Both the position numbers and the translations under genes were made by a program. The notes beneath the pieces are model-generated. The model saw only the letters and a list, made by a program, of their open reading frames with translations, did not search any database and was not told where the DNA came from. DNA of 33,259 nt, taken from the NCBI GenBank assembly GCA_900316445.1, contig ONCZ01000031.1, positions 1 through 33,259 of the forward strand, in the 5' to 3' direction. Positions 10,330 through 31,723 of the stretch are shown one piece after another. Each line of letters starts with the position of its first letter. The first letter of the stretch is position 1. Source of the stretch: an uncultured Prevotellaceae bacterium. GTDB taxonomy: Bacteria; Bacteroidota; Bacteroidia; Bacteroidales; Bacteroidaceae.

Positions 10330-11496
10330 ATGACTGACAACAGATATATGTTAAGGGGCGTCTCGGCAGCGAAAGAAGACGTGCATAACGCCATCAAGAA
10401 CATCGACAAGGGCATCTTCCCGCAGGCTTTCTGCAAGATCATCCCTGACATACTGGGCGGAGACCCTGAGTATTGTAACATCATGCATGCAGACGGGGCC
10501 GGCACTAAGTCGAGCCTCGCCTATATGTACTGGAAGGAGACGGGCGACCTCTCCGTATGGAAGGGCATCGCCCAGGATGCCATCGTGATGAATACCGACG
10601 ACTTGCTCTGTGTGGGTGCTGTGGATAACATTCTTGTTTCGAGCACCATCGGACGAAATAAGATGCTCGTGCCTGGAGAGGTAATCTCTGCCATCATCAA
10701 CGGTACGGACGAACTGCTGGCAGAATTGCGCGAGATGGGCATCGGCATTTATCCCACAGGTGGTGAGACGGCCGATGTAGGCGACCTTGTGAGAACGATC
10801 ATCGTTGACTCGACGGTGACTTGTCGCATGAAGCGTTCTGACGTCATCGACAATGCGAATATCTGTCCGGGCGATGTCATCGTGGGCCTTTCTTCTACTG
10901 GTCAGGCCACGTATGAGAAGCGTTATAACGGCGGTATGGGCTCGAATGGCCTTACCTCCGCCCGTCATGATGTCTTCGCCAAGTATCTGGCAGAGAAATA
11001 TCCAGAGAGCTATGATCACGCTGTGCCCAATGAGCTGGTGTATAGCGGTCAATACAAACTGACGGATACAGTCGAGGGATCGCCTGTGGATGCAGGACAG
11101 CTGGTGCTCTCCCCCACCCGCACCTATGCCCCCGTGATCAAGAAACTGCTCGACGAGCTGCGGCCAGAGATCCACGGTATGGTGCATTGCACAGGCGGTG
11201 CCCAGACCAAGGTGCTGCACTTCGTGAGTGATAACTGCCGTGTCATCAAGGACAATATGTTCCCTGTGCCGCCGCTGTTCAAGGCCATCCACGAGTGCTC
11301 TGGCACAGACTGGAAGGAGATGTATCAGGTGTTCAACATGGGCCATCGTATGGAGATCTACGTACGTCCGGAAATCGCCGATCAGGTGATTGCCCTCTCG
11401 AAGAGTTTCAACATCGATGCCCAGGTGATCGGCCATATCGAAGAAGGTAAGAAGAGCCTCACGATAAAGAGCGAATTCGGCACTTTCGATTATTAA
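10330..11496 (+). CDS. purM: Phosphoribosylformylglycinamidine cyclo-ligase (AIR synthetase)
   Basis: An ATP-dependent ring closure giving aminoimidazole ribonucleotide in purine synthesis. At 388 residues this is the Bacteroidetes form, longer than E. coli PurM. HADGAGTKS (about 54-62) is the glycine-rich nucleotide segment, followed by MNTDDLLCVGA with the paired aspartates and by PTGGETADVGD. The C-terminal domain contains HCTGGAQTKVLHF and VFNMGHRMEIY, matching the family HITGGG and FNMGIGM regions with changes typical of this subtype. The stop is 6 nt from the prfA ATG. PurC upstream acts two steps later in the same pathway. Confidence 0.93.
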   Translation: MTDNRYMLRGVSAAKEDVHNAIKNIDKGIFPQAFCKIIPDILGGDPEYCNIMHADGAGTKSSLAYMYWKETGDLSVWKGIAQDAIVMNTDDLLCVGAVDNILVSSTIGRNKMLVPGEVISAIINGTDELLAELREMGIGIYPTGGETADVGDLVRTIIVDSTVTCRMKRSDVIDNANICPGDVIVGLSSTGQATYEKRYNGGMGSNGLTSARHDVFAKYLAEKYPESYDHAVPNELVYSGQYKLTDTVEGSPVDAGQLVLSPTRTYAPVIKKLLDELRPEIHGMVHCTGGAQTKVLHFVSDNCRVIKDNMFPVPPLFKAIHECSGTDWKEMYQVFNMGHRMEIYVRPEIADQVIALSKSFNIDAQVIGHIEEGKKSLTIKSEFGTFDY

Positions 11497-11502
11497 TTGT
11501 TT

Positions 11503-12612
11503 ATGGAGAATAACAGCATATTACAGAAATTAGACGGTTTGGAGGCGCGATTTGAGGAGGTGTCGACATTGATCACCGACCCGGACGTGATAGCCGATCA
11601 GAACCGTTTTGTGAAACTGACCAAGGAATACAAGGATCTGGGCGACATCATGGATGCCCGCAAACGTTATATTGCCTGTCTGAACGGCATCAAGGAGGCC
11701 AAGGATATCCTTGCCAACGAGGACGATCCGGAGATGAAGGAGATGGCCCGCGAGGAACTGGCCACCAACGAGGCCCTGCAGCCCAAGCTGGAAGAGGAAA
11801 TCAAGATTGCCCTTATCCCGAAGGACCCAGAGGACGCCAAAAACGTGCAGATGGAGATCCGTGCAGGTACGGGTGGCGACGAGGCCTGCCTCTTTGCCGG
11901 AGACCTGTTTAAAATGTATAAGAGCTACTGCGACTCGAAAGGTTGGCAGCTGTCAATCACCAGTGTCTCTGAAGGAGCCGTCGGTGGCTATAAGGAAATC
12001 GACTTTGCCGTCTCGGGGGCAGATGTCTATGGTACGCTGAAATATGAATCGGGCGTGCATCGTGTGCAGCGCGTGCCTGCTACAGAGACACAGGGACGTA
12101 TGCATACCTCGGCGGCGACGGTGGCCGTGCTGCCTGAGGCCGATAAGTTCGAGGTACATGTGAACGAGGGAGAGATCAAATGGGATACCTTCCGCAGTTC
12201 AGGTGCCGGTGGTCAGAACGTGAATAAGGTGGAGTCTGGTGTCCGTCTGCGTTATATGTGGAAAAATCCCAACACGGGTGAGACAGAGGAGATTCTCATC
12301 GAATGTACGGAGACGCGCGACCAGCCCAAGAATAAGGAGCGTGCCCTCTCGCGCCTGTATACCTTTATTTATGATAAGGAGCATCAGAAATATATGGACG
12401 ATATCGCCAGCCGTCGTAAGAGCCTGGTCTCTACGGGTGACCGTTCGGCGAAGATCCGTACCTACAACTTCCCCCAGGGACGTGTGACGGATCACCGCAT
12501 CGGCTATACCACCCACGACCTTCAGGGATTCCTCGCTGGCGACATCCAGGCGATGATCGATGCCCTGACAGTGGCAGAGAATGCAGAGAGAATGAAAGAA
12601 ACGGAGTTATAG
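11503..12612 (+). CDS. prfA: Peptide chain release factor 1
   Basis: It terminates translation at UAA and UAG. I start at the ATG 11503 (369 residues); two in-frame codons further upstream begin with TTG just after the purM stop and add nothing. The stop-codon recognition tripeptide PAT lies in RVQRVPATETQGR, the RF1 signature that distinguishes it from RF2. The catalytic GGQ is at residues 236-238 in SGAGGQNVNK. The acidic, helical N-terminal domain and RAGTGGDEA are also standard. No frameshift site is present, as expected for RF1. The stop codon runs directly into an octamer repeat array. Confidence 0.97.
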   Translation: MENNSILQKLDGLEARFEEVSTLITDPDVIADQNRFVKLTKEYKDLGDIMDARKRYIACLNGIKEAKDILANEDDPEMKEMAREELATNEALQPKLEEEIKIALIPKDPEDAKNVQMEIRAGTGGDEACLFAGDLFKMYKSYCDSKGWQLSITSVSEGAVGGYKEIDFAVSGADVYGTLKYESGVHRVQRVPATETQGRMHTSAATVAVLPEADKFEVHVNEGEIKWDTFRSSGAGGQNVNKVESGVRLRYMWKNPNTGETEEILIECTETRDQPKNKERALSRLYTFIYDKEHQKYMDDIASRRKSLVSTGDRSAKIRTYNFPQGRVTDHRIGYTTHDLQGFLAGDIQAMIDALTVAENAERMKETEL

Positions 12613-12643
12613 AAGGAGAGAAGGAGTAAAGGAGAAAAGGAGT
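12612..12643 (+). repeat. Four tandem octamers between prfA and pyrF
   Basis: GAAGGAGA, GAAGGAGT, AAAGGAGA, AAAGGAGT in 8 bp register. Because the unit contains AGGAG, the array could act as a series of ribosome-binding sites before the pyrF ATG at 12652; that is inference, as this phylum relies little on such sites. Confidence 0.85.
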
Positions 12644-12651
12644 AAGTAGAT

Positions 12652-13509
12652 ATGACCAGAGAAGAATTGATTAAGCAGATCCGCGAAAAGCAGAGTTTCC
12701 TCTGCGTAGGACTCGATACAGACATCAACAAGATACCCCAGTGCATCATCGATGAGGCAAAGGAGAAGGATGGCGAAGACTATCTCTTCCGGGCGCTTTG
12801 TGAGTTTAATGCCCTCATTATTGATGCGACAGCCCCCTACTGCGTAGCCTATAAGCCCAACCTTGCTTTCTATGAGGCATACGGTGTGGACGGCATCCTC
12901 GCCTTTGAAGCCACAGTCGACTACCTGAAGGAGGAATATCCCGACCACTTCATCATTGCTGACGCCAAGCGCGGGGATATCGGCAACACGTCGAAGATGT
13001 ATGCCAAGACATTCTTTGAGCAGTATGACGTCGATGCCCTGACCGTCGCCCCCTATATGGGCGAAGACTCCGTCACGCCGTTCTTGGGTTATGACGGCAA
13101 GTGGGTCATCCTGCTTGCTCTCACCAGCAATAAGGGCTCATACGATTTCCAGCTGACAGAGGATGCCCAGGGCGAGCGCCTTTTTGAGAAAGTACTGAAG
13201 ATCTCCCAGCAATGGGGTAACGACGAGAATATGATGTATGTTGTCGGTGCCACACAGGGCAAGATGTTTGAGGATATCCGTAAGGTGGCTCCCAACCACT
13301 TCCTGCTCGTGCCTGGCGTAGGTGCCCAGGGTGGCAGTCTGGAGGAGGTGTGCAAATACGGCATGACCAAGGACTGCGGACTACTCGTAAACTCCTCCCG
13401 TGGCATCATCTATGCCTCCAACGGCGAGGACTTCGCTGAGGTGGCTGCACAGAAAGCCCAGGAACTACAACAGCAGATGGCTGAAGAACTGAAAAAGGTG
13501 GGATTGTAA
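12652..13509 (+). CDS. pyrF: Orotidine 5'-phosphate decarboxylase
   Basis: It decarboxylates OMP to UMP, the last step of de novo pyrimidine synthesis. The 285 residues fit the longer subfamily 2 type. FLCVGLDTD near the N-terminus is the first strand motif, [13 protein letters not shown] carries the substrate lysine, and [15 protein letters not shown] (about 104-118) is the catalytic D-K-x-x-D segment. [12 protein letters not shown] and [10 protein letters not shown] form the phosphate site. The C-terminal tail is a lysine- and glutamine-rich helix. The gene is 20 nt upstream of the HD protein and in the same direction. Confidence 0.96.
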
Positions 13510-19001: not shown

Positions 19002-21489
19002 CGAATCATCAAACATCATAAGCCGCACCCTTCAGTGGTGCAAGCAGAAGCTGGCAGCAGCCTGGCAATGGTACAAGCATCTCTACAAGGGTCGCCCATG
19101 GTATATTAAGGTACTGTCATTTGTCATATCTGTCATCCTCGCCTTCTTTCTCTACCTTGGAGCCGTAGACATCAACTTCCTGTGGCTCTTCGGCAAGTCG
19201 CCCTCGATGTCGACCATCAAGAACAAGCGCCCTGCGGAGGCCTCAATCATCTACAGTGCCGACGGCAAGCAGATCGGCAAGTTCTTCAGTGAGAACCGTA
19301 CGCCTGTAACCTACGAGGAGGTGAATCCCGTATTCTGGCAGGCACTCATCTCTACTGAGGACGAACATTTCTATCATCACCACGGCATCGACTATACCGC
19401 CTTCGTAGCCGTCGCCAAGGACTATATCCTCCATCGCGACGCCCGTGGAGCCTCGACCATCACCCAGCAGCTGGCCAAGAACCTCTTCCGCACACGCTCT
19501 GAATACTCTACAGGCCTCTTGGGAAACATTCCCGGACTGAAGATGCTCATCATGAAGAGCAAGGAATGGATCACCGCCTACAAACTCGAATACTTCTTCA
19601 CCAAGGAAGAAATCCTGACGCAGTATGCCAACACCGTAGACTTCGGCTCCAACGCCTTCGGCATCAAGACCGCCTGCAAGACCTACTTCGGCTGTTCGCC
19701 CAAAGACTTGAAGCCTGAGAACGCCGCCATCCTCGTAGGCATGCTCAAGGCCACCACCTACTACAATCCCCTCATCAATCCCGACAACGCCATCAAGCGC
19801 CGCAACATCGTGCTCGACCTCACGCAGCAGCACGGACACCTGTCGAAGGAAGTCTGTGACTCACTGAAGCAGTTGGAAATCAAACTCGACTACAGCGTGG
19901 AGAGTGCCTACGACGGCGATGCCAACTACTTCCGCGAGGCCGTCTCAGACTATCTGAAGGACTGGTGCAAGGAGTTCTACGACAACCGCAACGCCCTCTA
20001 TACCGAAGGCTTGAAGATCTACACCACCCTCGACTCACGCATGCAGCAGTATGCCGAGGAGGCTGCCTACAAGCAGATGAAGGAGGTGCAGAAGACCTTC
20101 AACCAGCACTGGGGCTCCACCAATCCCTGGCAGGATGAGCGCCACATAGAGATCAAGAACTTCATCGAGGACATCGCCAAGCGGCAGCCCGTCTACAAAT
20201 ACCTCTCAAAGAAATACGACGGCAACGAGGACTCCATCAACTACTACCTGAACCTGCCCCACCCCGTCAAGGTGTTCGACTACGAGCAGGGACAGGTGGT
20301 GAAGGAACTCTCCACGATGGACTCCATCCGTTACATGGTGCGCTTCATGCACTGCGGCTTCGTGGCGATGGAACCCCAGACGGGCCACGTGAAAGCCTGG
20401 GTGGGCGACATCGATTTCCGCTCATGGAAATACGACAAGGTGACTGCCATGCGCCAGCCTGGCTCCACCTTCAAGCTCTTCGTCTATACGGAGGCGATGA
20501 ATCAGGGCATCTCTCCCTGCGACACCCGTAAGGACGAGTATTTTGCCATGAAGGTGATGGATCACGGCAAGGAGGTCACCTGGGCTCCCACCAATGCCGA
20601 CGGACACTTCTCTGGAGCCAACATCACCCTGAAGCAGGCCTTCGCGATGAGTATCAACTCCGTAGCCGTCCGTCTGGGACAGGAATGCGGCATTGAGAAC
20701 ATCGTGAACACCGCCCACAACATGGGCATCAAGTCGAAACTCGACCCCACGCCCTCGCTCACCCTCGGCTCCAGCGACGTGAACCTTCTGGAGATGGTGA
20801 ACGCCTATTGTACGCCTGTGAACGACGGCAAGCACATCGATCCTGTACTTGTGGCGAAGATTGAAGACCGCGACGGCAACGTGATCTACCAGGCTCCGAC
20901 AGAAGCCAAGCAGGTCATCCCCTATCGCTCTGCCTTCCTCGTGCAGCAGCTGTTGAAGGGCGGTATGAGCGGCACCAGTTCTCGACTGATGGGCTTCGTG
21001 GGCTACGACAAGGCTGCCGACACCGACTTCGGCGGCAAGACAGGAACATCTAATAATCACTCCGACGCCTGGTTCATCGGCACCACGCCCAAGCTCGTCG
21101 TAGGTGCCTGGGTGGGCGGCGAATACCGCAGCATCCACTTCCGCACAGGCATGCTCGGACAGGGTAACCGCACGGCTCTCCCCATCTGCGGCTACTTCCT
21201 CGGCTCTGTGCTCAACGACAAGGACTTCAAACAGTACCGCTGCAAGTTCAGCGACCCGCACCACGATACGACGCTCTATTCGACAGAGTATGACTGCGGC
21301 GGCTACTTCAGCGCACCATCCGACTCAGACTCCATCAGCGTTGACTCACTCGACATCGACGAGCTCGATCCATATACCGCCGTCGATGAATGGGGCAATC
21401 CTGTGCCACCGCCTCACGACGAAGACTCTGAGGCACAGCCTGAACCTACTGAATCAGAGAACACGGAGGCCACCAGGGATGAAGACTAA
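18994..21489 (+). CDS. Class A penicillin-binding protein (PBP1A type)
   Basis: A bifunctional peptidoglycan synthase of 831 residues. A cytoplasmic N-terminus and one membrane helix (about 38-60) anchor it in the inner membrane. The glycosyltransferase domain (about 85-270) has catalytic glutamate E122 in ISTEDEHFYHHHGID and RGASTITQQLAKNLF. The transpeptidase domain has S491-T-F-K494 in RQPGSTFK, S553-I-N555 and K682-T-G684. The last 55 residues are an acidic, proline-rich tail. The start overlaps the miaA stop by 8 bp. Part of the membrane helix is encoded by a copy of the TGTCAT repeat found elsewhere in the window. Confidence 0.95.
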   Translation: MSNESSNIISRTLQWCKQKLAAAWQWYKHLYKGRPWYIKVLSFVISVILAFFLYLGAVDINFLWLFGKSPSMSTIKNKRPAEASIIYSADGKQIGKFFSENRTPVTYEEVNPVFWQALISTEDEHFYHHHGIDYTAFVAVAKDYILHRDARGASTITQQLAKNLFRTRSEYSTGLLGNIPGLKMLIMKSKEWITAYKLEYFFTKEEILTQYANTVDFGSNAFGIKTACKTYFGCSPKDLKPENAAILVGMLKATTYYNPLINPDNAIKRRNIVLDLTQQHGHLSKEVCDSLKQLEIKLDYSVESAYDGDANYFREAVSDYLKDWCKEFYDNRNALYTEGLKIYTTLDSRMQQYAEEAAYKQMKEVQKTFNQHWGSTNPWQDERHIEIKNFIEDIAKRQPVYKYLSKKYDGNEDSINYYLNLPHPVKVFDYEQGQVVKELSTMDSIRYMVRFMHCGFVAMEPQTGHVKAWVGDIDFRSWKYDKVTAMRQPGSTFKLFVYTEAMNQGISPCDTRKDEYFAMKVMDHGKEVTWAPTNADGHFSGANITLKQAFAMSINSVAVRLGQECGIENIVNTAHNMGIKSKLDPTPSLTLGSSDVNLLEMVNAYCTPVNDGKHIDPVLVAKIEDRDGNVIYQAPTEAKQVIPYRSAFLVQQLLKGGMSGTSSRLMGFVGYDKAADTDFGGKTGTSNNHSDAWFIGTTPKLVVGAWVGGEYRSIHFRTGMLGQGNRTALPICGYFLGSVLNDKDFKQYRCKFSDPHHDTTLYSTEYDCGGYFSAPSDSDSISVDSLDIDELDPYTAVDEWGNPVPPPHDEDSEAQPEPTESENTEATRDED
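19113..19136 (+). repeat. TGTCAT element core inside the PBP1A membrane helix
   Basis: ACTGTCATTTGTCATAT followed by CTGTCAT matches the intergenic element at 24209 in 23 of 24 positions. It encodes residues 40-48 of the protein (VLSFVISVI). The TGACA half at the start of the element is absent here. Confidence 0.6.
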
Positions 21490-21499
21490 GCGCAGAATC

Positions 21500-21527
21500 T
21501 GACACTGTCATTTGTCAGAATTGTCAT
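21500..21527 (+). repeat. TGTCAT element copy 1, before the helicase gene
   Basis: TGACACTGTCATTTGTCAGA then ATTGTCAT. It has a TGACA-C-TGTCA dyad followed by TGTCA repeats at +7 and +16. It occupies most of the 47 bp between the PBP1A stop and the helicase ATG at 21537. Confidence 0.85.
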
Positions 21528-21536
21528 CTTTTTGCA

Positions 21537-23399
21537 ATGAGCAGCCAAGAAGAATCGTTAGACCTTGAAAACAAGGAGTGGCAAGACGCCCTGCAGATTG
21601 TGAACTACACCCGCCGCTCGCTTTTCCTCACGGGAAAGGCAGGCACGGGCAAGAGCACTTTTCTCCGCTACGTCTCGAAGCACACGAAGAAGAAGCACGT
21701 GATCCTCGCCCCTACGGGCATCGCGGCCATCAACGCAGGCGGCTCCACGCTGCACAGTTTCTTCCGTCTGCCCTTCCATCCCCTGCTGCCCAACGATTCG
21801 CGCTACGATCGTCGGCATATCAAGGAAACGCTGAAATACACAGGTGCCCAGCGCAAGCTGATACGTGAAGTCGAACTCATCATCATCGACGAGATATCAA
21901 TGGTGCGGGCAGACATCATCGACTTCATCGACAAGGTGCTGCGCATCTATACCCGCAACCCTGAGCCCTTCGGCGGCAAACAGCTGTTGCTTGTGGGTGA
22001 CATCTTCCAGCTCGAGCCCGTGCTCAAAGACGATGAGCGCCAGCTGCTGCAGCCCTTCTACCCCTCGCCCTACTTCTTCAATGCGAAAGTGTGGCAGCAG
22101 ATGCCCGTTGTCTCCATCGAGCTCCGCAAGGTCTATCGTCAGTCTGACCCTGCCTTCATCGCCATCCTCGACCGCATCCGCAACAACACCGCCACTACTG
22201 CCGATTTACAAGCACTTAACGCCAGAGTAATCTCTTCCCCTCCTAAGTTAGGAGGGGTGTCCGAAGGACGGGGTGGTCTGAACACACCATCCGCACAATC
22301 AAGCCCCCAAACTAATCAAGCCCCACTCCCTTCGGGAGGGGTTGGGGGTGGGTTCCTAATCACCCTCGCTACTCGCCGCGACACCGTCGATTACATCAAC
22401 GAGCAACACCTCTCGGCCCTCGACGGCTCGCCATCCATCTTCTTCGGCGCCATCAAGGGCGACTTCCCTGAAACCTCTCTCCCCACGCCGATGGAACTCC
22501 AATTAAAGCCTGGTGCGCAGGTCATCTTCATCAAGAACGACAAGGACAAACGTTGGGTAAACGGCACCCTTGGCACCATCGACTACATCGACGAGGAAGA
22601 GGGTATCATCGGCATCATCAACGAACAGGGTCAGGAGTTCGATGTCGAGCGCGAAGTATGGGAAAATATGCGCTACACCTTCAACGAAAAGGAGCAGAAG
22701 ATCGAAGAAGATTTATTAGGCACCTACACGCAATTCCCTATTCGTCTGGCGTGGGCCATCACCGTCCACAAGAGCCAGGGACTGACATTCTCGCAAGTAG
22801 CAATCGATTTCGGTGGAGGCGGTGCCTTTGCCGGAGGACAGACCTACGTGGCCCTCTCCCGTTGCACTTCTCTCGAAGGCATCACCCTCAAGGAGCCCAT
22901 CCGTCAGAGTGACGTTTTCGTGCGTGCCGAAGTAGTGCAGTTTGCCAGCCGCTACAATGATGCCTCGCTCATCGCACAGGCGATGCAGGAAGGCAAGGCC
23001 GACCGCGAATATCACGATGCCGTGATGGCCTTCGACCGAGGTGACTTCGATGCCTTCCTCAACCATTTCTTCCTGGCCATCCACTCCCGCTATGACATCG
23101 AGAAGCCCCACGCCCGCCGCCTTATCCGCCGCAAGCTGGAGATCATCAACCGCCAGCGCCGCACCATCTCCGAACTCCAGGAAAAACACGCCTCAGAGCT
23201 CCAGTCCCTGCAATCTAAACTCGACGCGCAAAACGAACTCCTCAAGCGCCTCGCCGCCGAATATACCATCATGGGCCGCGAGTGCGAGCATGAGCACATG
23301 ACCGACGCCGCCATCCGCAACTACGAGAAGGCCCTCGAGCTCTATCCCGATGCCGGTGACGCCCGCCGCCGCCTCAAAAAACTCCAGAAAAAGTCCTAA
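21537..23399 (+). CDS. PIF1-like superfamily 1 DNA helicase with C-terminal coiled coil and TPR
   Basis: A 620-residue ATPase. Walker A GKAGTGKS is at residues 33-40, LAPTGIAAINAGG is motif Ia, IIIDEISMVRAD is the Walker B region, and VGDIFQLEPV is motif III. After an insertion, TVHKSQGLTF and YVALSRCTSLEGI are motifs V and VI of the PIF1/RecD family. The C-terminus (about 525-580) is a charged coiled coil and ends in a TPR-like segment, AIRNYEKALELYPDAGDA. Such proteins unwind DNA, often at structured sites. About 41 residues (233-273) come from an in-frame palindromic repeat between ARVIS and FLITLATRRDT. The start is the ATG just after the TGTCAT element. Confidence 0.87.
   Translation: MSSQEESLDLENKEWQDALQIVNYTRRSLFLTGKAGTGKSTFLRYVSKHTKKKHVILAPTGIAAINAGGSTLHSFFRLPFHPLLPNDSRYDRRHIKETLKYTGAQRKLIREVELIIIDEISMVRADIIDFIDKVLRIYTRNPEPFGGKQLLLVGDIFQLEPVLKDDERQLLQPFYPSPYFFNAKVWQQMPVVSIELRKVYRQSDPAFIAILDRIRNNTATTADLQALNARVISSPPKLGGVSEGRGGLNTPSAQSSPQTNQAPLPSGGVGGGFLITLATRRDTVDYINEQHLSALDGSPSIFFGAIKGDFPETSLPTPMELQLKPGAQVIFIKNDKDKRWVNGTLGTIDYIDEEEGIIGIINEQGQEFDVEREVWENMRYTFNEKEQKIEEDLLGTYTQFPIRLAWAITVHKSQGLTFSQVAIDFGGGGAFAGGQTYVALSRCTSLEGITLKEPIRQSDVFVRAEVVQFASRYNDASLIAQAMQEGKADREYHDAVMAFDRGDFDAFLNHFFLAIHSRYDIEKPHARRLIRRKLEIINRQRRTISELQEKHASELQSLQSKLDAQNELLKRLAAEYTIMGRECEHEHMTDAAIRNYEKALELYPDAGDARRRLKKLQKKS
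22234..22356. repeat. Palindromic element in frame inside the helicase gene
   Basis: The left arm TTCCCCTCCTAAGTTAGG continues to GGTGGTCTGAAC, the same arm seen at the 3' ends of the elements at 27579, 28571 and 31607 (reverse complement). The right part is a different GC-rich hairpin (CACTCCCTTCGGGAGGGG). It encodes a P-, G- and S-rich linker that interrupts the helicase between conserved motifs without breaking the frame. Confidence 0.85.
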
Positions 23400-23431
23400 A
23401 ACCCTACGGAATTAAGGAGTTTGCTTAATCA

Positions 23432-23507
23432 GAATTAATTTTTAAGTTAATTCCTTGCATATTTCAGAAATAGTTCTTATCTTTGCAGCGTGATAACTTA
23501 AAAGTTA
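23432..23507 (+). promoter_or_regulatory. Promoter and likely operators of the toxin-antitoxin pair
   Basis: A -7 box TATCTTTG (23478-23485) follows CTTG (23454-23457) by 20 nt. Two dyads flank it: GAATTAA/TTAATTC (23432-23453), touching the -33 element, and TAACTT-AA-AAGTTA (23494-23507) near the transcription start. Both include AAGTTA-type half-sites. This layout fits autorepression by the antitoxin; binding itself is inferred. Confidence 0.65.
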
Positions 23508-23529
23508 AGAACAACAATACTGTACTTGG

Positions 23530-23856
23530 ATGGACAAGATAGCAGAAATAGGTGCCTTAGAGAGGTATTTCCGCCCTGAAGGCAGATACGGAGATGGTGT
23601 TGGTGTGATTCCAATTGATGTTGGCAACAAAGTTCGTCTGTACTGTCTGCGATTGTCTGACAAGATTTTGGTGTTCGGAAATGGAGGAGTCAAGGATACG
23701 GCTACATGGCAGGAAAGCGAGGAATTGGCTCCCTATGTGAAACTCTTGATCGATACGAGCCGATTTATTTCATCGCGCATGAACGACGGCTCGTTGGTTT
23801 TGGTTGATAAGGAAATCATTGGTGACTTAAACTTTACGCGAGATGAAGAGAAGTAG
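23530..23856 (+). CDS. Putative HigB/RelE-like toxin of a type II module
   Basis: A 108-residue protein just upstream of, and overlapping by 14 bp, a small HTH protein. The core GDGVGVIPIDVGNKVRLYCLRLSDKILVFGNGGVKD has the alternating strands and basic KVRLYCLR of RelE/HigB-type RNase toxins found in Bacteroidetes (toxin gene first). Basic residues are modest and catalytic residues cannot be fixed by eye. The gene begins about 40 nt after a strong promoter with two inverted repeats. The pairing with an HTH protein is the main evidence for the role; the family name is moderately supported. Confidence 0.6.
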   Translation: MDKIAEIGALERYFRPEGRYGDGVGVIPIDVGNKVRLYCLRLSDKILVFGNGGVKDTATWQESEELAPYVKLLIDTSRFISSRMNDGSLVLVDKEIIGDLNFTRDEEK

Positions 23857-24187
23857 TATTATTGAGGCAAGGCGCATGCAGGTTAATCCTGAGGTGCGAC
23901 AGAGGGTGGATCTTTCGTTCCAGATAGTCGACCGCATCTATGAGATTCTCCAGGCTAAGGGCCTCAGACAGAAAGACCTCGCTCAGCTACTGGGCAAAAA
24001 GGAGGCAGAAATCAGCAAGTGGATGCGTGGCACACACAATTTCACAATCGACACACTCGTATCCATCGAGCATGCCCTTGGCGCTCCCATCTTACAAGTC
24101 GTACACACAAAAGCATTCGTCGATGCCTACGACTACCAGCCCATGATGGTCAGCGAACCACTTGAAGCCCCCACACCTGATAAGTGA
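23843..24187 (+). CDS. XRE-family HTH antitoxin
   Basis: A 114-residue protein with a helix-turn-helix of the Cro/C1 (XRE) type at about 41-75: LRQKDLAQLLGKKEAEISKW is the recognition unit and MRGTHNFTIDTLVSIEHALG completes the bundle. An N-terminal helix rich in charged residues precedes it, and a C-terminal tail ending in PTPDK is probably flexible. It overlaps the toxin gene by 14 bp, so the two are co-translated. It likely neutralises the upstream protein and represses the shared promoter at the dyads around 23432-23507. Confidence 0.8.
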   Translation: MKRSSIIEARRMQVNPEVRQRVDLSFQIVDRIYEILQAKGLRQKDLAQLLGKKEAEISKWMRGTHNFTIDTLVSIEHALGAPILQVVHTKAFVDAYDYQPMMVSEPLEAPTPDK

Positions 24188-24208
24188 CAGTGCCCTCCCC
24201 TTCGGAAA

Positions 24209-24236
24209 TGACACTGTCATTTGTCATATTTGTCAT
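24209..24236 (+). repeat. TGTCAT element copy 2
   Basis: TGACACTGTCATTTGTCATA then TTTGTCAT, preceded by CGGAAA. It lies between the antitoxin stop and the terminator, and faces copy 3 (25953-25980, minus) across the lipoprotein gene. Confidence 0.9.
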
Positions 24237-24243
24237 ACAAAAT

Positions 24244-24273
24244 AATCCCCGACGCCGCTGAGCATCGGGGATT
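24244..24273 (-). terminator. Terminator of the lipoprotein gene (possibly bidirectional)
   Basis: AATCCCCGA (24244-24252) pairs with TCGGGGATT (24265-24273), a 9 bp stem with a 12 nt loop, about 23 nt beyond the lipoprotein stop on the minus strand. It is followed on that strand by ATTTTGTATGAC. It may also stop transcripts from the toxin-antitoxin pair. Confidence 0.7.
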
Positions 24274-24295
24274 GTTGTATGAAGAAGTCGGGAGA

Positions 24296-25552
24296 TTAAT
24301 CTTCTGACAGGTCGGTGTCAGAGAACTGGAACCATTGCACGTTGGGAACACTCTGACGCTCAAGCATCCAAGTCTTGCTACCATACATAGTAGCAACAAT
24401 CAGAGGAGCCTCACCCTGAGCAGGGAATGGCACAGCCCAGTAGTATGTGGTTTCACCACCTGCTGCTTTATCATTACCTTCGACGATGACACTCACTTTG
24501 CTGTTATCGCCATCCCAGCCTGTAGCATCAAACTCCTTGAGGCAGAGATTCGGGTCGATGGGATTCGTGTTGAGCATCTCGGTGATGGTGTAATCCTGTC
24601 TCTTTGTCCAAGAATTGTTGGCTACCTTAATGGTGACATCAAGCGTACCACCGAGGGCACGGACATAGCACTTTTGAGAGCCGTCACTATACTTAATCAC
24701 ATCAAACACGACGTCGTTGAAGTCGAAGTCATAGCTACCACCGAGGTCCTCAACCATATAACGCTTTGAAATAACAGGGACAGGCACAGTCGGAATCTCT
24801 TTTACCCACAGAACCAGATTGGTGTAATCAGGGTTGGTCTTGTCGCATTTGAAGCCCCAGAATGTGTAGCTCACGCCATCAATGGTCATTGTAACAATCT
24901 TGAAGTCTGTGATAGTCTGGTTATATGCACTGCTCAAATCTACTTTCTTTTTGTCTGAGGAAGCGGTAAACCATCTGGCGCCGTCTGGAATCTGTGAGAA
25001 ATCGAGACTGCTGGTGTGTTTCTCTGCCGAGTTACCAATCTTTGCATTTTTGCCATTATCCGGACTGCTCTGTCTTAAATACAGGTCTCCTTCTGGTGTA
25101 TTGGCAACACCCCAGGTGAAATATTTCGCACTTGAAGCATCATCCCTTGACACGCCTACCACACTGAAAATAATCTTTCCGCTAGGTGCCCATGTTGTCG
25201 GCTGTACTTTACCAAACTCCGCAACAATATCTCCCCAGTTATTATTAAAAAGTTTGGCAATCTTGCTTTCATTATTGCTATAATTCAAATAATAACCATA
25301 AGATTCAGTTGAGGCCATATCTTGCACGAGGTTGCAACTTTGACCTTTATTACCACGCGTTCCGGCGAAACCAGCCAAGGTGCTGCCTCTCTGAGACAAA
25401 TCCCATGTCTCAAACGGAGAGATCTCCCCATACTTCTGAATGAATGCAGACTTATAGTCCTTCTCAATGAACTCATGAGCCTTTTCAGGACTATAAGAAT
25501 ACTCTTCTCCCTTGCTGCTGCAGGAAGACAAAACGACTGTACCAGCCATCAT
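24296..25552 (-). CDS. LruC/DUF4842-like lipoprotein, signal peptide apparently truncated
   Basis: A 418-residue protein with a lipobox-like LSSC at residues 8-11 and a C-terminal domain with EDLGGSYDFDFNDVVFDV (about 270-287), the acidic signature of LruC/DUF4842 proteins common in Bacteroidetes. Such proteins are surface or periplasmic lipoproteins with beta-rich domains. The first ATG gives only ten residues before the cysteine and no basic n-region. The frame continues upstream as ICAVT, a plausible signal-peptide core, to an in-frame TAG six codons before the ATG. The true N-terminus therefore seems lost to a mutation or rearrangement. No promoter box lies close upstream. The cassette is bracketed by inverted TGTCAT elements. 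Family assignment is moderate. Confidence 0.7.
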   Translation of the reverse strand: MMAGTVVLSSCSSKGEEYSYSPEKAHEFIEKDYKSAFIQKYGEISPFETWDLSQRGSTLAGFAGTRGNKGQSCNLVQDMASTESYGYYLNYSNNESKIAKLFNNNWGDIVAEFGKVQPTTWAPSGKIIFSVVGVSRDDASSAKYFTWGVANTPEGDLYLRQSSPDNGKNAKIGNSAEKHTSSLDFSQIPDGARWFTASSDKKKVDLSSAYNQTITDFKIVTMTIDGVSYTFWGFKCDKTNPDYTNLVLWVKEIPTVPVPVISKRYMVEDLGGSYDFDFNDVVFDVIKYSDGSQKCYVRALGGTLDVTIKVANNSWTKRQDYTITEMLNTNPIDPNLCLKEFDATGWDGDNSKVSVIVEGNDKAAGGETTYYWAVPFPAQGEAPLIVATMYGSKTWMLERQSVPNVQWFQFSDTDLSED

Positions 25553-25776
25553 AGTGACGGCACAAATTACCTAATAATGATGATATATTAGTAGAAATCG
25601 GCTAGTTTTTTAGTTAAAAATGTATAATATGTGAGATATGTCAATTCTTGGGCACATAATGTTACAATTTGTCAGAAGAGAAGTGATAAACATCAAATGG
25701 ATAAGATGGAGATGAAATTATTTTACATTAGAAATGCGCGAAAATGAGCAAAATTTAGCAGTAACGAAACAGGGAG

Positions 25777-25842
25777 TTTAGACTAAGGAAAGTGGAGGTT
25801 TCGTTAGGGGAAAGTCCAAGTTTCCTTAGGGGAAAGTCAGAA
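25777..25842. repeat. Three tandem 22 bp repeats
   Basis: Units start at 25777, 25799 and 25821. The second and third share TTTC-TTAGGGGAAAGTC with one difference in that core, and the first is diverged but keeps TTT and GGAAAGT in register. The unit length equals that of the array at 4792-4857 although the sequences differ. Confidence 0.75.
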
Positions 25843-25866
25843 GGGCGATTTTCGGCCGAATCAATG

Positions 25867-25874
25867 TACTTTTG
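25867..25874 (+). promoter_or_regulatory. Orphan -7 box
   Basis: TACTTTTG matches TAnnTTTG. A transcript from here would run through the AT palindrome at 26023-26062 toward the gene at 26207; no gene starts nearby. Weak support. Confidence 0.35.
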
Positions 25875-25952
25875 CAAGAAAACGAGAATTGAAATTATTT
25901 TACATCATAAATCGTTTGAGCAAACACGGCTGGGAGGCTCGGCGGGAAAAAG

Positions 25953-25980
25953 ATGACAAATATGACAAATGACAGTGTCA
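25953..25980 (-). repeat. TGTCAT element copy 3
   Basis: The minus strand reads TGACACTGTCATTTGTCATA then TTTGTCAT, identical over 28 nt to copy 2 in opposite orientation. Confidence 0.9.
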
Positions 25981-26022
25981 TATTTGGAGCAGGGAGGTTG
26001 GAAGAAAAAAGTGTGAAATATT

Positions 26023-26062
26023 TCACTATATATATAAATATATATATTTATATATATAGTGA
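26023..26062. repeat. Perfect 40 bp AT-rich palindrome
   Basis: The 20 nt left half TCACTATATATATAAATATA is followed immediately by its exact reverse complement, with no loop. In RNA it would form a long weak hairpin followed by T-rich sequence; in DNA it could extrude as a cruciform. Confidence 0.9.
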
Positions 26063-26101
26063 TTTTTATCAGGATTTTTTGCGGAGGTGTGGGCACGGAA
26101 A

Positions 26102-26130
26102 TGACAATTGTCATTTGTCATAATTGTCAT
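26102..26130 (+). repeat. TGTCAT element copy 4
   Basis: TGACAATTGTCATTTGTCAT then AATTGTCAT, preceded by CGGAAA. It has one extra base in the dyad compared with copies 2, 3 and 5. It forms the left boundary of the cassette that ends with copy 5. Confidence 0.85.
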
Positions 26131-26169
26131 TTTTTGCCTAATTCTCTTCGTGGAATCGAAAAAATGCTG

Positions 26170-26177
26170 TATCTTTG
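26170..26177 (+). promoter_or_regulatory. -7 box for the gene at 26207
   Basis: TATCTTTG matches TAnnTTTG, 29 nt upstream of the ATG at 26207. It supports that ATG over the more upstream in-frame ATG at 26108, which lies within the repeat. Confidence 0.65.
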
Positions 26178-26206
26178 CAGGCAACAAACGAATCAATCAC
26201 GAAAGA

Positions 26207-26932
26207 ATGAACAGCAAACTGTTGAAACTCAACGAGCCGTACAAGGTGATCTACGCCGGCGGCAAGGTAGGCCGGCACATCGCGACGCTCTTCACGTGGG
26301 AGGAAGACGAGGATGGCTCGGCAGAGATACTGGAGTCGCACGAGTATCCGATCATCGACCAGGGTGAGGAATTCCCCGCAGGCACGCTGGTGACGACGGA
26401 GATTGAAGACTGCCGCGTGATCTGCGGCTACAACCCGAAGAACGGCATCACGGGCACGAACCTCTATTGGCTGGCAGGCATCATCGAGTACGACTTCCAG
26501 CAGCTGGAGCCGTCGGGGGCCGAGTATATCCTGAAACGTTTGGAACTGCTCGACTGCCAGATCAAGCTGCCCGAGGAGGAAGTGAAGGACGAGAACGGCA
26601 AGCCGGAGCTCGACGAGAACGGCAAGAAGGTGATGACCACGAAGTGGGACTACACGGCCTCTCTCTGGGTATCGCTGAAGAAGGGCCGCTTCGAGGGCGA
26701 GCGCGAGTATATCGTGAAGGGCAACCACTCCAACGGCTTCTACTTCGAGTCGATGGGCACTGCCGACGAGATATTCAGCGACCTGAGCTATCAGCTGTCC
26801 GTCTACAGCCAATACCTGCTCGACGGCATCGGCAGCATCCATTTCTGCACGAGTGACGGCTATCTGGCCGACGTGTTCAACCGCCTGAACAAGAAGCAGG
26901 GCATCGAGACCGACTACAAGGATATATGGTAA
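26207..26932 (+). CDS. Protein of unknown function (241 residues), mobile-element neighbour
   Basis: I do not recognise this protein. The start is set at the ATG 26207, after the -7 box at 26170. It is acidic, has no signal peptide or membrane helix, and begins MNSKLLKLNEPYKVIYAGGK. A stretch near 130-146 (EVKDENGKPELDENGKK) is a low-complexity charged loop with a near-repeat of DENGK. GNHSNGFYFESMGTADEIFSDL and YLADVFNRLNKKQGIETDY are the most structured C-terminal parts. It is GC-rich and ends 20 nt before the next gene, so the two probably form an operon upstream of the VirE_N gene. A role in mobile-element maintenance is only suggested by position. Confidence 0.8.
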   Translation: MNSKLLKLNEPYKVIYAGGKVGRHIATLFTWEEDEDGSAEILESHEYPIIDQGEEFPAGTLVTTEIEDCRVICGYNPKNGITGTNLYWLAGIIEYDFQQLEPSGAEYILKRLELLDCQIKLPEEEVKDENGKPELDENGKKVMTTKWDYTASLWVSLKKGRFEGEREYIVKGNHSNGFYFESMGTADEIFSDLSYQLSVYSQYLLDGIGSIHFCTSDGYLADVFNRLNKKQGIETDYKDIW

Positions 26933-26952
26933 TAAAATAAGGTACGCGCGCG

Positions 26953-27537
26953 ATGGCAAACGACAACGGAACAGGCATACCCCTCGGCTATATCGTGGAA
27001 TACGCGAAGGCGCAGCCGACTCAGGCGAAGCGGCAGGCGTTTGTGAATCTGATCCACTTCTGGACCCAGAACGGCGGCGACTTGGAGGCTGCCCTCAAGG
27101 CCATCCTTGAGATACAGGGCGGACAGGTGATCAGCGCCAGCAATATGCCAAGGGAGTTTATGCCCTATTACCGTTCTGAGACGATCGCCACGAAGCTGAT
27201 AGACATCGTCCGCAAGATCGACGAGAGAATCGCTGCGAAGGAGGACAACTGGGACTGGGCTCACGTGATGCGGGTGATGATCGACGAGGGCATCATTATG
27301 ACGAACACGACGCCGAACAAGTTTGACCAGCTAATCTGTGCGATGGTGCCAGGCAAGGGGCGGGATAATGTGCGCAAGAACGGGGACTACAGCATCCTCG
27401 ACCGTGAGAAGCCTTGGACGCAATGGATCAAGATGAGTCACATAGATCCGCAAGAGGCACAGGACAGAACGATCTGCAATATGATCGCTAAGGAGTTCGA
27501 GCCCGTGCTGAAGCGAAAAATCATCATAGATTACTAA
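26953..27537 (+). CDS. Protein of unknown function (194 residues)
   Basis: I do not recognise a family. It is a soluble, mostly helical protein with no signal peptide. Residues 30-60 (FVNLIHFWTQNGGDLEAALKAILEIQGG) look like a helical repeat, and W-rich segments follow (EDNWDWAHVMRVMIDEGI; EKPWTQWIKMSHIDPQEAQDR). The C-terminus EFEPVLKRKIIIDY is basic then hydrophobic. The ATG at 26953 follows the upstream stop by 20 nt, so it is likely co-transcribed with the gene at 26207. Downstream lie a palindromic element and phased TTCCGA boxes, then the VirE_N gene on its own promoter. Confidence 0.8.
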   Translation: MANDNGTGIPLGYIVEYAKAQPTQAKRQAFVNLIHFWTQNGGDLEAALKAILEIQGGQVISASNMPREFMPYYRSETIATKLIDIVRKIDERIAAKEDNWDWAHVMRVMIDEGIIMTNTTPNKFDQLICAMVPGKGRDNVRKNGDYSILDREKPWTQWIKMSHIDPQEAQDRTICNMIAKEFEPVLKRKIIIDY

Positions 27538-27578
27538 CGACAATCACTCCCATCCAAGACCAGCCGCAGAAGTAATTG

Positions 27579-27697
27579 TTTCTCCCCCTGAGTCAGGGGG
27601 AGCCAGAGGGGGTCTGAACAAGGCTGAGACTGAGGGTGTGACTGAGGGAATAGCGACTGTTCAGACCACCCCAACCCCTCCTAACTTAGGAGGGGAA
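27579..27697. repeat. Intergenic palindromic element
   Basis: The left arm TTTCTCCCCCTGAGTCAGGG runs to GGGGGTCTGAAC. The right arm starts GTTCAGACCACCCC and ends CTAACTTAGGAGGGGAA, close to the reverse complement of the left. About 50 bp of unrelated sequence lies between. The flanks GTAATT and AATTAC extend the symmetry. Confidence 0.85.
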
Positions 27698-27721
27698 ATA
27701 ATTACATTGATCCCAATATTG

Positions 27722-27791
27722 TTCCGAAGCTTTTCCGAAAAACGCCAACACCTTTCCGACATTTTCCGATCTATTTCCATTTCCTTTCCGA
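27722..27791. repeat. Helically phased TTCCGA boxes
   Basis: TTCCGA occurs at 27722, 27733, 27754, 27764 and 27786, with TTCCAT at 27775. Spacings are 11, 21, 10, 11 and 11 bp, about one helical turn with one position skipped. The set ends 34 bp before the -33 element of the VirE_N promoter. It could be binding sites for one protein aligned on one face of the DNA. Confidence 0.7.
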
Positions 27792-27824
27792 ACAGTTAAA
27801 CGCGTCTGTTTAGAGGGGGAAAGA

Positions 27825-27899
27825 CTTGCTATACATTATTATTCTTAGTAACTTTGCAGTGTGAGAAGTCCGGAATTCTCGCATTGAGACTAAGAATAA
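27825..27899 (+). promoter_or_regulatory. Promoter of the VirE_N gene with nested inverted repeats
   Basis: CTTG (27825-27828) and TAACTTTG (27849-27856) are 20 nt apart. An 11 bp perfect inverted repeat, TTATTCTTAGT (27839-27849) and ACTAAGAATAA (27889-27899), encloses the start region, and GAGAA-TTCTC with TCCGGA at its centre lies inside it (about 27863-27880). The gene's ATG is at 27931. Confidence 0.65.
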
Positions 27900-27930
27900 A
27901 ATATTAATAGCAGAAGAAAAAAGTAATAGT

Positions 27931-30303
27931 ATGAGTACAAGAATGATTCTGATGAACCAAAAGGTTCGCGCCTCTAAGGCACAAGTTTTTAACGAGACGA
28001 TCGAGACTTACTTCGACACTACCAGGAGTGCCGAAGTCAAAAGCCTCATCGCAGAGATCCGCAGCACTGACGATACCAATAAGCGCCGTCAGTTGAAGAG
28101 CCAGCTGCCCTTCCGCTGCCCCCACTATTTCAGCTTCAAGGATGGCCGTCGTGCGCAGGCTAACATCATCCCTGAGGAGTTCACATTTCAGACCTGCGTG
28201 GACATCGACGATATGAGTCAGGTGGAGCAGGCACTCTCTCGCGCGTACCTTATTAATACTAATGAGGGTGAGTGGCAGGGAATGCTGCTTCACGCGGAGC
28301 GTTCGGCTTCGGGCAAACTGCATCTTGATATCCGTCTGCCGATTGGTATGACCATCGAGGAGGCTCAGCGAGCCTATACCAAGGCGCTGGGAGTAGATTT
28401 CGATAGCGATTGTTGTTCTCCTGAGCGTATGATCTACATTTCTGATGAGGAGTCGCAGTTGTTTACTGCAGATGGCTGGTATGCAAGGCTGTCGGATGAG
28501 GAATTGGCAGCCCGTCGCAAGGCCTACACCGATCGCGGACTGACGATTGACGGGCGTGACAAGGTATCTGTTTCCTCCCCTAAGTTAGGGGAGGTCAGGA
28601 GGGGTCTGAACGAGGGAATGACCGCAGGAAAAGCGGCTGTTCAGACCACCCCTACCCCTCCTAACTCAGGAGGGGAAAGAGATTACCCTGCGGACTATAT
28701 GGGTGTCCCCTACTCTTACATCGTCGAGGAGCTGGCCGATCAGCTGGGTGGTGCGCCAGAGCACGGCAACCGCAATCCGTTCATCTTCACGATGGCCTGT
28801 CATCTGCGCCACATCTGCAACGATGATCCTCAGTGGATCCGTCAGATCCTGCCCAACTTCGGCGAGGCTCAGGACCGTGTGAACGCCACCATCGAAAGTG
28901 CCTGCCGCCGCCAGCAGTCGCAGACCACTCCTACGAAGGTGAAGAACGCCATCACCCTCGCCCGCAAGCGCACAAACATCGAAAACGGTATGGACGAGGC
29001 CTCGCTGATGCGCCAGCCTCAGATGCCCGAACGTCTGCCGGCTCCCATCCGTCTCATCACCTCCAAGGCCCCTCGCGGCTACTGGCCCGCCATCGCCAAC
29101 ACCACCTTCGCCGCCTTTGCCACCTATACCGGAGGCGTGAAGGCTGAGTTCTGGAACGGCACGCTCACGGAGATGAATCAGCTGCACATGTTGGCCGCCC
29201 CTATGTCGATCGGCAAGTCGAGCATCAAGGAGCCCATCAACCACATCCTCCAGCCCATCATCGAGCGCGACAAGCTGGCCCGTCAGCGTGAGAAGGAATG
29301 GGCTGAGGAGACCAACACGAAAGGTGCCAACAAGGAGAAGCCCGAGCGCCCGAAGGACATCTGTGTGCAAGTGGTGGACTCGGATATGACCAACGCTGCC
29401 TACTGCCTTCGTATGGAGGATGCCGAACGTGCAGGCAACAAGGCTCTCTTCACCCGTATGGACGAAATGGAGCAGCTGAAGAAGTTGGCTGGCGGCACGA
29501 TGGCAGAGGTGACTGAGATCCTCCGCAGAGACTTCGATGCAGACGTCTACGGACAGGAGCGAGTAGGCACGCAATCCATCAAGTCGCGCACCACGATGCG
29601 TCACAATATGGTCATCTCCACCACGCCAGCAACGGCCAAGTATTTCCTTGGCGGCAACATCGACAACGGCACGCTCTCACGTTTCAGCCTCTCAACCATC
29701 GTGAGGGAGGATGTGGATCATCGCCCGATGTTTAAGTCGTACGACGAGATGTTCGACAAGCGGCTGGCCGTCTATCAGGCACGTCTTGACAATGCCAAGG
29801 GTACCATTGTCTGTCCGCAGGCCAAGAAACTGGCATTGGCACTGCTCGACCGCGGTGAGGAGCGTGCGCTGATGATGGGCAACGAGAGCTATCAGCAGCT
29901 GTCGTACCGAGCCGTAGAGATTGCCTTCCGAAAGAGCATCATCCTTTACATTATGAACGGTATGAAGTGGACCAGGGAGATCGAGGACTTCATTACGTGG
30001 ACGTTCGATTATGACCTGTGGGTGAAGATGTGCATCCTCGGACAGGAAATCAGCACGAAGCTGGAACAGGACTATCGCATTATGCGTCCAGGTATGCCCT
30101 GCCTGCTGGAGCAGCTTGGCGACTCCTTTACCCGTCAGGAGTTCGAAGTGCTTTACAAGGCGCAGTGCGGTTCAGTGGCCGACTTCAGGAAGGCTTCGGG
30201 CAATCTGCTCTCGCAATGGAAGAAGCGTGGATGGATCGAGGAAGACAAGGCGCAGGGCATCTTCTACAAGACCGATGTGTATTATCAGAAGCACGCGGCG
30301 TAA
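27931..30303 (+). CDS. VirE_N (BT4734-type) / DUF3987-like protein of a mobile element
   Basis: A 790-residue protein. The N-terminal half (to about 210) has RAQANIIPEEFTFQTCVDID, LHLDIRLPIGMTIEEAQRAY and CSPERMIYISDEES, the VirE N-terminal pattern widespread in Bacteroidetes mobile elements and related to primase-like folds. The C-terminal half resembles DUF3987 helicase/ATPase proteins, with a Walker A-like SIGKSS (K429) and VVDSDMTNAAY further on. The likely role is replication or priming of an integrated element; no integrase is present here. About 36 residues (214-249) are encoded by an in-frame palindromic element joining the two halves. The stop codon abuts TGTCAT element copy 5. Confidence 0.8.
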   Translation: MSTRMILMNQKVRASKAQVFNETIETYFDTTRSAEVKSLIAEIRSTDDTNKRRQLKSQLPFRCPHYFSFKDGRRAQANIIPEEFTFQTCVDIDDMSQVEQALSRAYLINTNEGEWQGMLLHAERSASGKLHLDIRLPIGMTIEEAQRAYTKALGVDFDSDCCSPERMIYISDEESQLFTADGWYARLSDEELAARRKAYTDRGLTIDGRDKVSVSSPKLGEVRRGLNEGMTAGKAAVQTTPTPPNSGGERDYPADYMGVPYSYIVEELADQLGGAPEHGNRNPFIFTMACHLRHICNDDPQWIRQILPNFGEAQDRVNATIESACRRQQSQTTPTKVKNAITLARKRTNIENGMDEASLMRQPQMPERLPAPIRLITSKAPRGYWPAIANTTFAAFATYTGGVKAEFWNGTLTEMNQLHMLAAPMSIGKSSIKEPINHILQPIIERDKLARQREKEWAEETNTKGANKEKPERPKDICVQVVDSDMTNAAYCLRMEDAERAGNKALFTRMDEMEQLKKLAGGTMAEVTEILRRDFDADVYGQERVGTQSIKSRTTMRHNMVISTTPATAKYFLGGNIDNGTLSRFSLSTIVREDVDHRPMFKSYDEMFDKRLAVYQARLDNAKGTIVCPQAKKLALALLDRGEERALMMGNESYQQLSYRAVEIAFRKSIILYIMNGMKWTREIEDFITWTFDYDLWVKMCILGQEISTKLEQDYRIMRPGMPCLLEQLGDSFTRQEFEVLYKAQCGSVADFRKASGNLLSQWKKRGWIEEDKAQGIFYKTDVYYQKHAA
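28571..28677. repeat. Palindromic element in frame inside the VirE_N gene
   Basis: The left arm TTTCCTCCCCTAAGTTAGGG runs to GGGGTCTGAAC, the right arm is GTTCAGACCACCCC to ACTCAGGAGGGGAAA, and the middle is about 30 bp. It matches the intergenic copy at 27579. The encoded segment is a P-, G- and T-rich linker between the N-terminal domain and the ATPase part. Confidence 0.9.
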
Positions 30304-30306
30304 AAG

Positions 30307-30334
30307 ATGACAAATATGACAAATGACAGTGTCA
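30307..30334 (-). repeat. TGTCAT element copy 5
   Basis: The minus strand reads TGACACTGTCATTTGTCATA then TTTGTCAT, identical to copies 2 and 3. It begins 4 nt after the VirE_N stop and forms the right boundary, inverted relative to copy 4. Confidence 0.9.
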
Positions 30335-30349
30335 TATTCCGCACACAGC

Positions 30350-30721: not shown

Positions 30722-30811
30722 CACCCCGTTAGAGTCCGTTGGGGCAGAGTGAAGTGTGTACGGACGTACGCCGCCTCGCGGAAAAAACCCTTAAAATACA
30801 ATATAAAAAGA

Positions 30812-31106
30812 ATGTACGCAATTGTAGAAATTCAGGGTCAGCAGTTCAAGGCCGAAGAGGGCAAGAAGCTCTTTGTGCATCACATCAAGGATGCCGAGGA
30901 AGGCAAGACTGTTGAATTTGACAAAGTGAGTGACGGTAGGTGCTCCGACCGTAAAGGGAGCCAAAGTAGTGTGTGAGGTAGTGAACCCGCTGGTGAAAGG
31001 TGACAAAGTCATCGTGTTCAAAATGAAGCGCCGCAAGGACTCTCGTAAGCGCAACGGTCATCGTGAGCAGTTCACCCAGTTGGAAATCAAATCAGTAATC
31101 GCTTAA
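30812..31106 (+). pseudogene. rplU: 50S ribosomal protein L21, frameshifted by an internal deletion
   Basis: ATG 30812 starts [20 protein letters not shown], unmistakably L21, through VEFDKV at 30928. The frame then runs out after about 15 unrelated codons. One base later, in another frame (from 30930), [20 protein letters not shown] and on to IKSVIA (stop 31104-31106) continues L21. Compared with the usual Bacteroides L21, about eight residues (the LLVDxxGx loop) are missing, equal to a 23 nt deletion. L21 is a core ribosomal protein, so an assembly or sequencing error is the likeliest cause. It is immediately followed by rpmA, the conserved order. Confidence 0.85.
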
Positions 31107-31430: not shown

Positions 31431-31470
31431 TCCTGTGTTCCTCTCGGAGCGCAGGATTTCTGCGTTTTAT
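31431..31470 (+). terminator. Terminator of the rplU-rpmA operon
   Basis: TCCTGTGTTCC (31431-31441) pairs with GGAGCGCAGGA (31446-31456) through all 11 positions, counting G-U pairs, around a TCTC loop. TTTCTGCGTTTTATT follows. It is 36 nt past the rpmA stop. Confidence 0.85.
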
Positions 31471-31723
31471 TCTCCCCCTAAGTTTGGATCCGCAGTTCTC
31501 CCCCTAAGTTGGATCCGCAGTTCTCCCCCTAAGTTAGGGGGAGCCAGAGGGGGTCTGAATAAGCGCACGGTTTCTGCCTTAGTTCTCCCCTAAGTTGGAT
31601 CCGCAGTTCTCCCCCTAAGTTAGGGGGAGTAAGAGGGGGTCTGAACGCGGGCTTGTTCTGAGGCAAAAGAAACCATTGGTGCTCGTTCAGACCACCCCTA
31701 ACCCCTCCTAACTTAGGAGGGGA
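31470..31723. repeat. Nested cluster of palindromic elements between rpmA and serS
   Basis: Five left ends starting TTCTCCCC(C)TAAGTT occur at 31470, 31496, 31521, 31583 and 31607. Three are cut short into GGATCCGCAG and run into the next left end after 24-26 bp. Two carry the full left arm to GGGGGTCTGAA. Only one right arm is present (31685-31723). The whole interval between the rpmA terminator and the serS promoter is made of these repeats. Confidence 0.85.

Follow-up and report, generated by a model that had tools for sequence, protein, structure and literature searches.

The alpha protein of phage P4 is a primase-helicase with two separated iteron regions, ori1 and crr. Iterons also lie directly downstream of the genes for the initiator helicases SaPI Rep and SCCmec Cch2, and in these systems the initiator binds its own iterons (PMC7581432). 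The BT4734-like primases carry the AEP motifs hhhD(D/E), sxH and h(D/E), as defined in their description (PMC5862659). In the literature searched, which consisted partly of extracts and had most subscription journals outside it, no tested function was found for BT4734-like primases, and nothing linked iterons to them. Among dispersed repeats, the 188-bp intergenic repeat PINSR of Prevotella is described as having no terminal inverted repeats, and that description does not tie it to a gene (PMC4755523).

The locus considered here lies in the window, a stretch of 33,259 nt that makes up the whole of contig C44 in the genome of an uncultured Prevotellaceae bacterium (G000; 137 contigs, 4.04 Mb). 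With phage P4 it shares a putative primase-helicase and two iteron regions, but phage or satellite genes are absent here. As in SaPI and SCCmec, a putative chromosomal primase/helicase gene has iterons directly downstream of it, but the locus differs from those systems (PMC7581432) in that the primase and helicase-like parts are joined in one protein, a second, AT-rich module with inverted iterons lies upstream, gene-less modules are scattered elsewhere, and the scanned window ORFs yielded no integrase. The small, palindromic, dispersed copies recall MITEs, although no cognate transposase was found among the same ORFs, no target duplication was recognised, and the arrays are iterated short words matched to the primase cassette. 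PINSR is likewise a dispersed intergenic repeat in Prevotella; the repeat studied here is linked to a gene cassette and differs in this from PINSR as described (PMC4755523). The parts are of known kinds, while their combination and the dispersed private modules appear to be new.

Repeat arrays, module and genes of the window

The features of the window are as follows, with the searches behind each in brackets.

19109..19136, + strand: diverged copy in the coding sequence of a PBP transmembrane segment, possibly coincidental (repeat searches)
21500..21527, + strand: lone iteron array, with the PBP gene on one side and the PIF1-like gene on the other (repeat searches)
24209..24236, + strand: single iteron array adjoining the lipoprotein gene (28-mer search; absent from locus L145)
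25772..25840, no strand: R-module of AAAGTC/GAGTTT-type repeats, left of the origin-like module (sequence; similar blocks beside other copies)
25953..25980, - strand: left arm of the origin-like module, an iteron array (28-mer search, layout comparison)
26020..26065, no strand: AT palindrome with 23-nt arms, the module core (palindrome scan)
26101..26130, + strand: right arm of the origin-like module, with gene A downstream of it (sequence, 22-mer core search)
26207..26932, + strand: gene A, coding for a conserved 241-aa protein of no known family (family and PDB searches, relatives)
26953..27537, + strand: gene B, coding for a conserved 194-aa protein of no known family (family and PDB searches, relatives)
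27931..30303, + strand: gene for a 790-aa protein, putatively a primase joined to a helicase-like ATPase (invariant residues, homologs)
30307..30334, - strand: right-hand iteron array, 4 nt past the primase stop codon (28-mer search, relatives)

All five repeat copies named in the sequence-only reading, at 21500(+), 24209(+), 25953-25980(-), 26101(+) and 30307-30334(-), are present; three of them are identical over 28 nt, and together they form one repeat family. A 19-mer allowing up to 3 mismatches matched 5 places in the window (expected 0.00 from 100 shuffles), a list that lacks the 26101 copy, which other searches recovered, including that with the 22-mer core; counting the added match at 19109(+), the window holds six copies. 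The five copies do fall within 9 kb, but the family is not restricted to that segment and occupies 11-20 places genome-wide: at up to 3 mismatches the 28-mer was found at 11 places in G000 (reversed control 0) and the 22-mer core at 20 (reversed control 1). At up to 2 mismatches the core occurs in 27 of 150 sampled genomes of the genus, the reversed control giving one hit each in 2 genomes.

Three of the copies stand singly. The array-like match at 19109-19136 is common to the close relative G136, and the G018 protein differs in sequence there. The 21500 array was found in 2 of the 28 PBP-PIF1 loci read (G000 and G136) and also in L156; a host regulon around PBP-PIF1 was rejected on these counts, as the gene pair itself is conserved. 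The copy at 24209 had been paired with that at 25953 as the ends of a lipoprotein cassette. This pairing fails, and the mobile unit 24209-25953 is ruled out, by locus L145, where 134 other nucleotides replace 24209-25775, including copy 2 and the lipoprotein gene, while everything from 25776 onward is kept, with copy 3. A small ORF in this region (23530-24187) has a weak RelE/ParE-type match (E 0.068) and overlaps a gene of HTH type; the two, also present in L145, may form a toxin-antitoxin pair.

Copy 3 belongs instead with copy 4, because other loci have this divergent pair too, again with an AT-rich core in the middle but with no genes. The two inverted iteron arrays surround an AT palindrome in an origin-like module of ∼180 bp, and this palindrome is the sole one with arms of at least 15 in the 33-kb window (0 in each of 5 Markov shuffles). 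Elsewhere in G000 the copies are mostly divergent pairs that span 178-309 bp with an AT-rich core between them; such pairs lie at C33, C78, C86, C47 and C56, and at C90, where one arm is interrupted. R-module-like blocks adjoin the copies at C33, C78, C86, C47, C90, C56 and C79. One R-module search pattern was poorly chosen (5 places, against 4 for the control) and was discarded. C47 and C90 have ∼690 nt in common, and three module copies in G018 are alike over 322-443 nt at 84-87%, with similarity stopping a few nucleotides from the outer edge of the right arm. The C47 and C86 modules are common to G136 with their flanks included, and so give no sign of current movement. Modules can contain or lie next to arrays of another spelling (loci L068 and L364; TGTAAC at C47, GTGACC next to C83:20403), as if several families were nested.

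The 790-aa protein had been labelled VirE_N, for which there is no direct support. PF08800 gave 16 matches over its curated cut-off in 15 other reading frames of G000 and none in this ORF, and at E<=1e-3 the protein matched nothing in Pfam, NCBIfam or PHROG; judged on PF08800 alone, it falls outside the BT4734-like primase family. The likeness to that family (PMC5862659) comes from a C83 protein, 37% identical to the window protein, that does match PF08800, and from the candidate AEP motif residues D91, D93, H131 and D172, assigned by eye, which are invariant in an alignment of 8 homologs. The P-loop residues are invariant in the same homologs, including G428-K429-S430. A DUF3987 match was found in 1 of the 8 (1e-5), the window protein itself having none, and weak Cas8b_C matches occur in 5 of them (best 0.0058). 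The protein is taken here as a putative divergent BT4734-like primase fused to a helicase-like ATPase. PDB profile searches returned nothing for the primase or gene A and E-values of only 0.2 or worse for gene B, and neither gene A nor gene B has an informative match in the family libraries searched.

Other features of the window were observed alongside these. G+C-rich palindromic repeats of the CCCCTCCTAAGTTAGGAGGGG type recur at 22234-22350, 27579-27698, 28571-28675 and 31469-31722, one inside the PIF1-like open frame and another inside the primase frame, in a variable linker; L155 lacks a 171-nt block (27540-27710) that contains one of them. The gene for ribosomal protein L21 (∼30811-31080) is in two frames compared with relatives, and serS (32680) is missing ∼73 nt that are present in four relatives. 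The split frame and the gap may be assembly errors or real damage.

Related cassettes and their array letters

A scan of named genomes with alignment A1 gave 77 loci, of which 65 have Prevotella or Prevotellaceae in the title. Layout was compared in a set of 26 loci at 46-94% identity; outside the set are L158, from G136, which has the complete layout, L162 (a copy of L161), L160 and L163, omitted because their contigs begin at the primase, and the fragments L209, L218 and L220. Of the 26, 22 have a left module complete with its two arms. As for the other four, the contig of L150 begins at the right arm, L165 retains the palindrome and right arm only, the module of L148 is degenerate, and L146 has no module in the 254 nt examined before gene A. 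An AT palindrome with arms of at least 15 was found at 14 of the 26 loci, never more than one per locus, and each of the 18 module cores measured, 15 from the set, was AT-rich. An inverted array follows closely on the primase stop codon in 21 of the 25 loci that could be evaluated, the exceptions being L147, L159, L161 and L168; L148, with 80 nt after the stop, was not evaluable. Gene content varies, in that L152 and L175 retain the module and primase and lack genes A and B, and the A-B pair in L165 is inverted relative to L166. The cassettes have iterons that adjoin the putative initiator gene, together with an AT-rich region, as in the layout of iteron replicons. The related cassettes, with internally matching repeats in spellings of their own, point to a little-known family of origin-like chromosomal elements in Prevotella, of which the window would carry one member.

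The letters of the arrays differ between subfamilies (TGTCAT-TTGTCAT, TGTCAGAATTGTCAG, TGTCATCGGTGTCATCG and TGTAATCCTGTAATCC) and are concordant within each locus. Summed over 25 loci, own-locus matching was 478, compared with a maximum of 477 and a mean of 335 in 20,000 permutations, relatedness inflating both sides of the test; the own upstream ranks first in just 4 of the 25 because relatives share letters. When the 150 nt after each stop codon were compared with the 4.5 kb upstream, an inverted match scoring at least 15 was found for 31 of 92 primase ORFs, among which two loci are counted twice (L238/L355 and L211/L240), and for 17 of 356 other ORFs; no fewer than 6 of these 17 sit on the same arrays. 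The remaining 61 primase ORFs, mostly of remote subfamilies, have no inverted match at score 15, and two 97%-identical cassettes in G045 have different upstream repeats.

Among other SPECIFICITIES in G000, 16 further primase ORFs were examined and 3 have matched arrays, with the same layout in other letters: C53 (inverted match 26/26), C35 (25/25) and C83 (23/24). Tandem arrays follow the stop codon at C119, C19 and C62, where the partner was not found, and the rest of the 16 have no clear matched array. The ATGGGA array of the C53 type occurs at 9 places in G000 (reversed control 0): three at the C53 cassette itself, two inverted pairs on C83, and two singles. Both C83 pairs are gene-less, with starts 141 and 139 bp apart, and each has an AT-rich core and an R-module. 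Dispersed gene-less modules therefore exist for two specificities in one genome. The partner genes vary among cassettes: that of C83 (L355 4865-6319, reverse-complement coordinates) has a weak HIRAN match below cut-off, and that of C35 (L357 2718-3440, reverse-complement coordinates) encodes a BRO-N/KilAC protein.

Boundaries, competing explanations and meaning

The inverted pair 26101(+)/30307(-) does bracket a conserved cassette of gene A, gene B and primase, as had been claimed, and similarity between loci stops within ∼30 nt of the right array. This is seen for cassettes at different loci, L150/L152/L153/L154 and L164-L167; at L147 and L175 divergence begins before the right array, and in remote subfamily loci such as L180, L185 and L192 similarity continues some hundreds of nucleotides past it. 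The paralogs in the complete genome G045, from another subfamily, do not have their boundaries at matching arrays. In the same genome, L221 carries a 2.6-kb insertion (10700-13324) in a BRO-N type gene, absent from the paralog L222; each of its ends has GTACCGATT words in iterated form, and a short flanking sequence (ACATGG) is duplicated. Precise presence or absence in strains, and target duplications, had been proposed as checks. Inspection by eye of the compared edges revealed no duplication, and no clean empty site was found for the C78 and C33 modules, at the L151/L152 site, or in an indel scan of available loci; a 328-nt indel between L172 and L178, considered as a module, resembled coding sequence. 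A plasmid origin was set aside, with no plasmid match, as was a phage origin, with two weak phage matches at ∼24% and one viral contig at 31%.

The explanation we favour, with about as much doubt as belief, is a primase-helicase element resident in the chromosome, with an origin-like site where its product recognises iterons of its own. It builds on the layout, the matching of arrays within loci, the subfamily-specific letters and the dispersed gene-less modules of two specificities in one genome, all observed directly, and from these we infer binding, replication and mobility. The element would consist of two iteron arrays, inverted relative to each other around an AT-rich core and accompanied by an R-module, then genes that end in a putative BT4734-like primase-helicase, and usually another inverted array soon after the stop codon. 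A cassette product, most likely the primase-helicase itself, would recognise the element's own iterons, open the AT-rich core and prime DNA synthesis there, by analogy with the initiators of satellite islands and iteron plasmids. The right-hand array may be a second contact point or the element's end, and the gene-less module would have been scattered as non-autonomous copies.

The same arrangement might be read as a transposon, with 26101(+)/30307(-) as terminal inverted repeats, the gene-less modules as miniature non-autonomous copies moved in trans, and the primase-helicase taking part in copy-type transposition, and taken together this is rather unlikely. The end of cassette similarity near the right array, the dispersal of the gene-less modules and their inverted arms, such as define a MITE or transposon by its terminal inverted repeats, are what a transposon would leave. 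However, the window ORFs scanned had no match to a transposase or integrase family, the edges of the gene-less unit are formed by the divergent pair rather than by the 26101/30307 pair, the right array is missing in 4 of 25 loci, and neither a target duplication nor a clean empty site came to light. The sequence-only reading, in which the pairs look like terminal inverted repeats of mobile cassettes, is supported in part: copies 4 and 5 bracket a conserved cassette, and copies 2 and 3 do not bound a unit.

Its other proposal, that one regulator binds the copies, agrees partly with the findings, but the cassette's own primase-helicase is the likelier factor. In a stricter form, a cassette protein would control its own operon and some host genes through the arrays, with no replication or movement. 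We regard this as improbable: an operator has no need of an array past a stop codon or of an AT palindrome between the arms, and modules occur with no shared downstream gene seen, even though gene A has its promoter-like region immediately downstream of the right arm and single copies sit at gene ends. It is more doubtful still, and in our view very unlikely, that these are unlinked intergenic repeats lying beside primase genes by chance. These genomes are rich in repeats, G018 has dozens of places with R-module-like matches, and the G045 paralogs have different neighbours, but chance would hardly account for within-locus matching over several spellings, the fixed layout and the C53 result.

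Returning to the origin-like element, a wider picture is possible, if tentative, in which Bacteroidales carry transposase-free chromosomal elements whose primase-helicase and private iteron code diversify together, and which spread by copying origin-bearing DNA rather than by cut-and-paste. One genome would then hold several families (TGTCAT, ATGGGA, CCTAACAA and others), sometimes nested, and each family would have a master cassette as well as orphan origins scattered elsewhere. G000 has many BT4734-like primases, as the PF08800 matches show. If the proposed element is real, private iteron arrays and origin-like modules would provide a testable function for some of these primases, account for a number of puzzling intergenic repeats, and supply a natural collection of distinct initiator-origin pairs.
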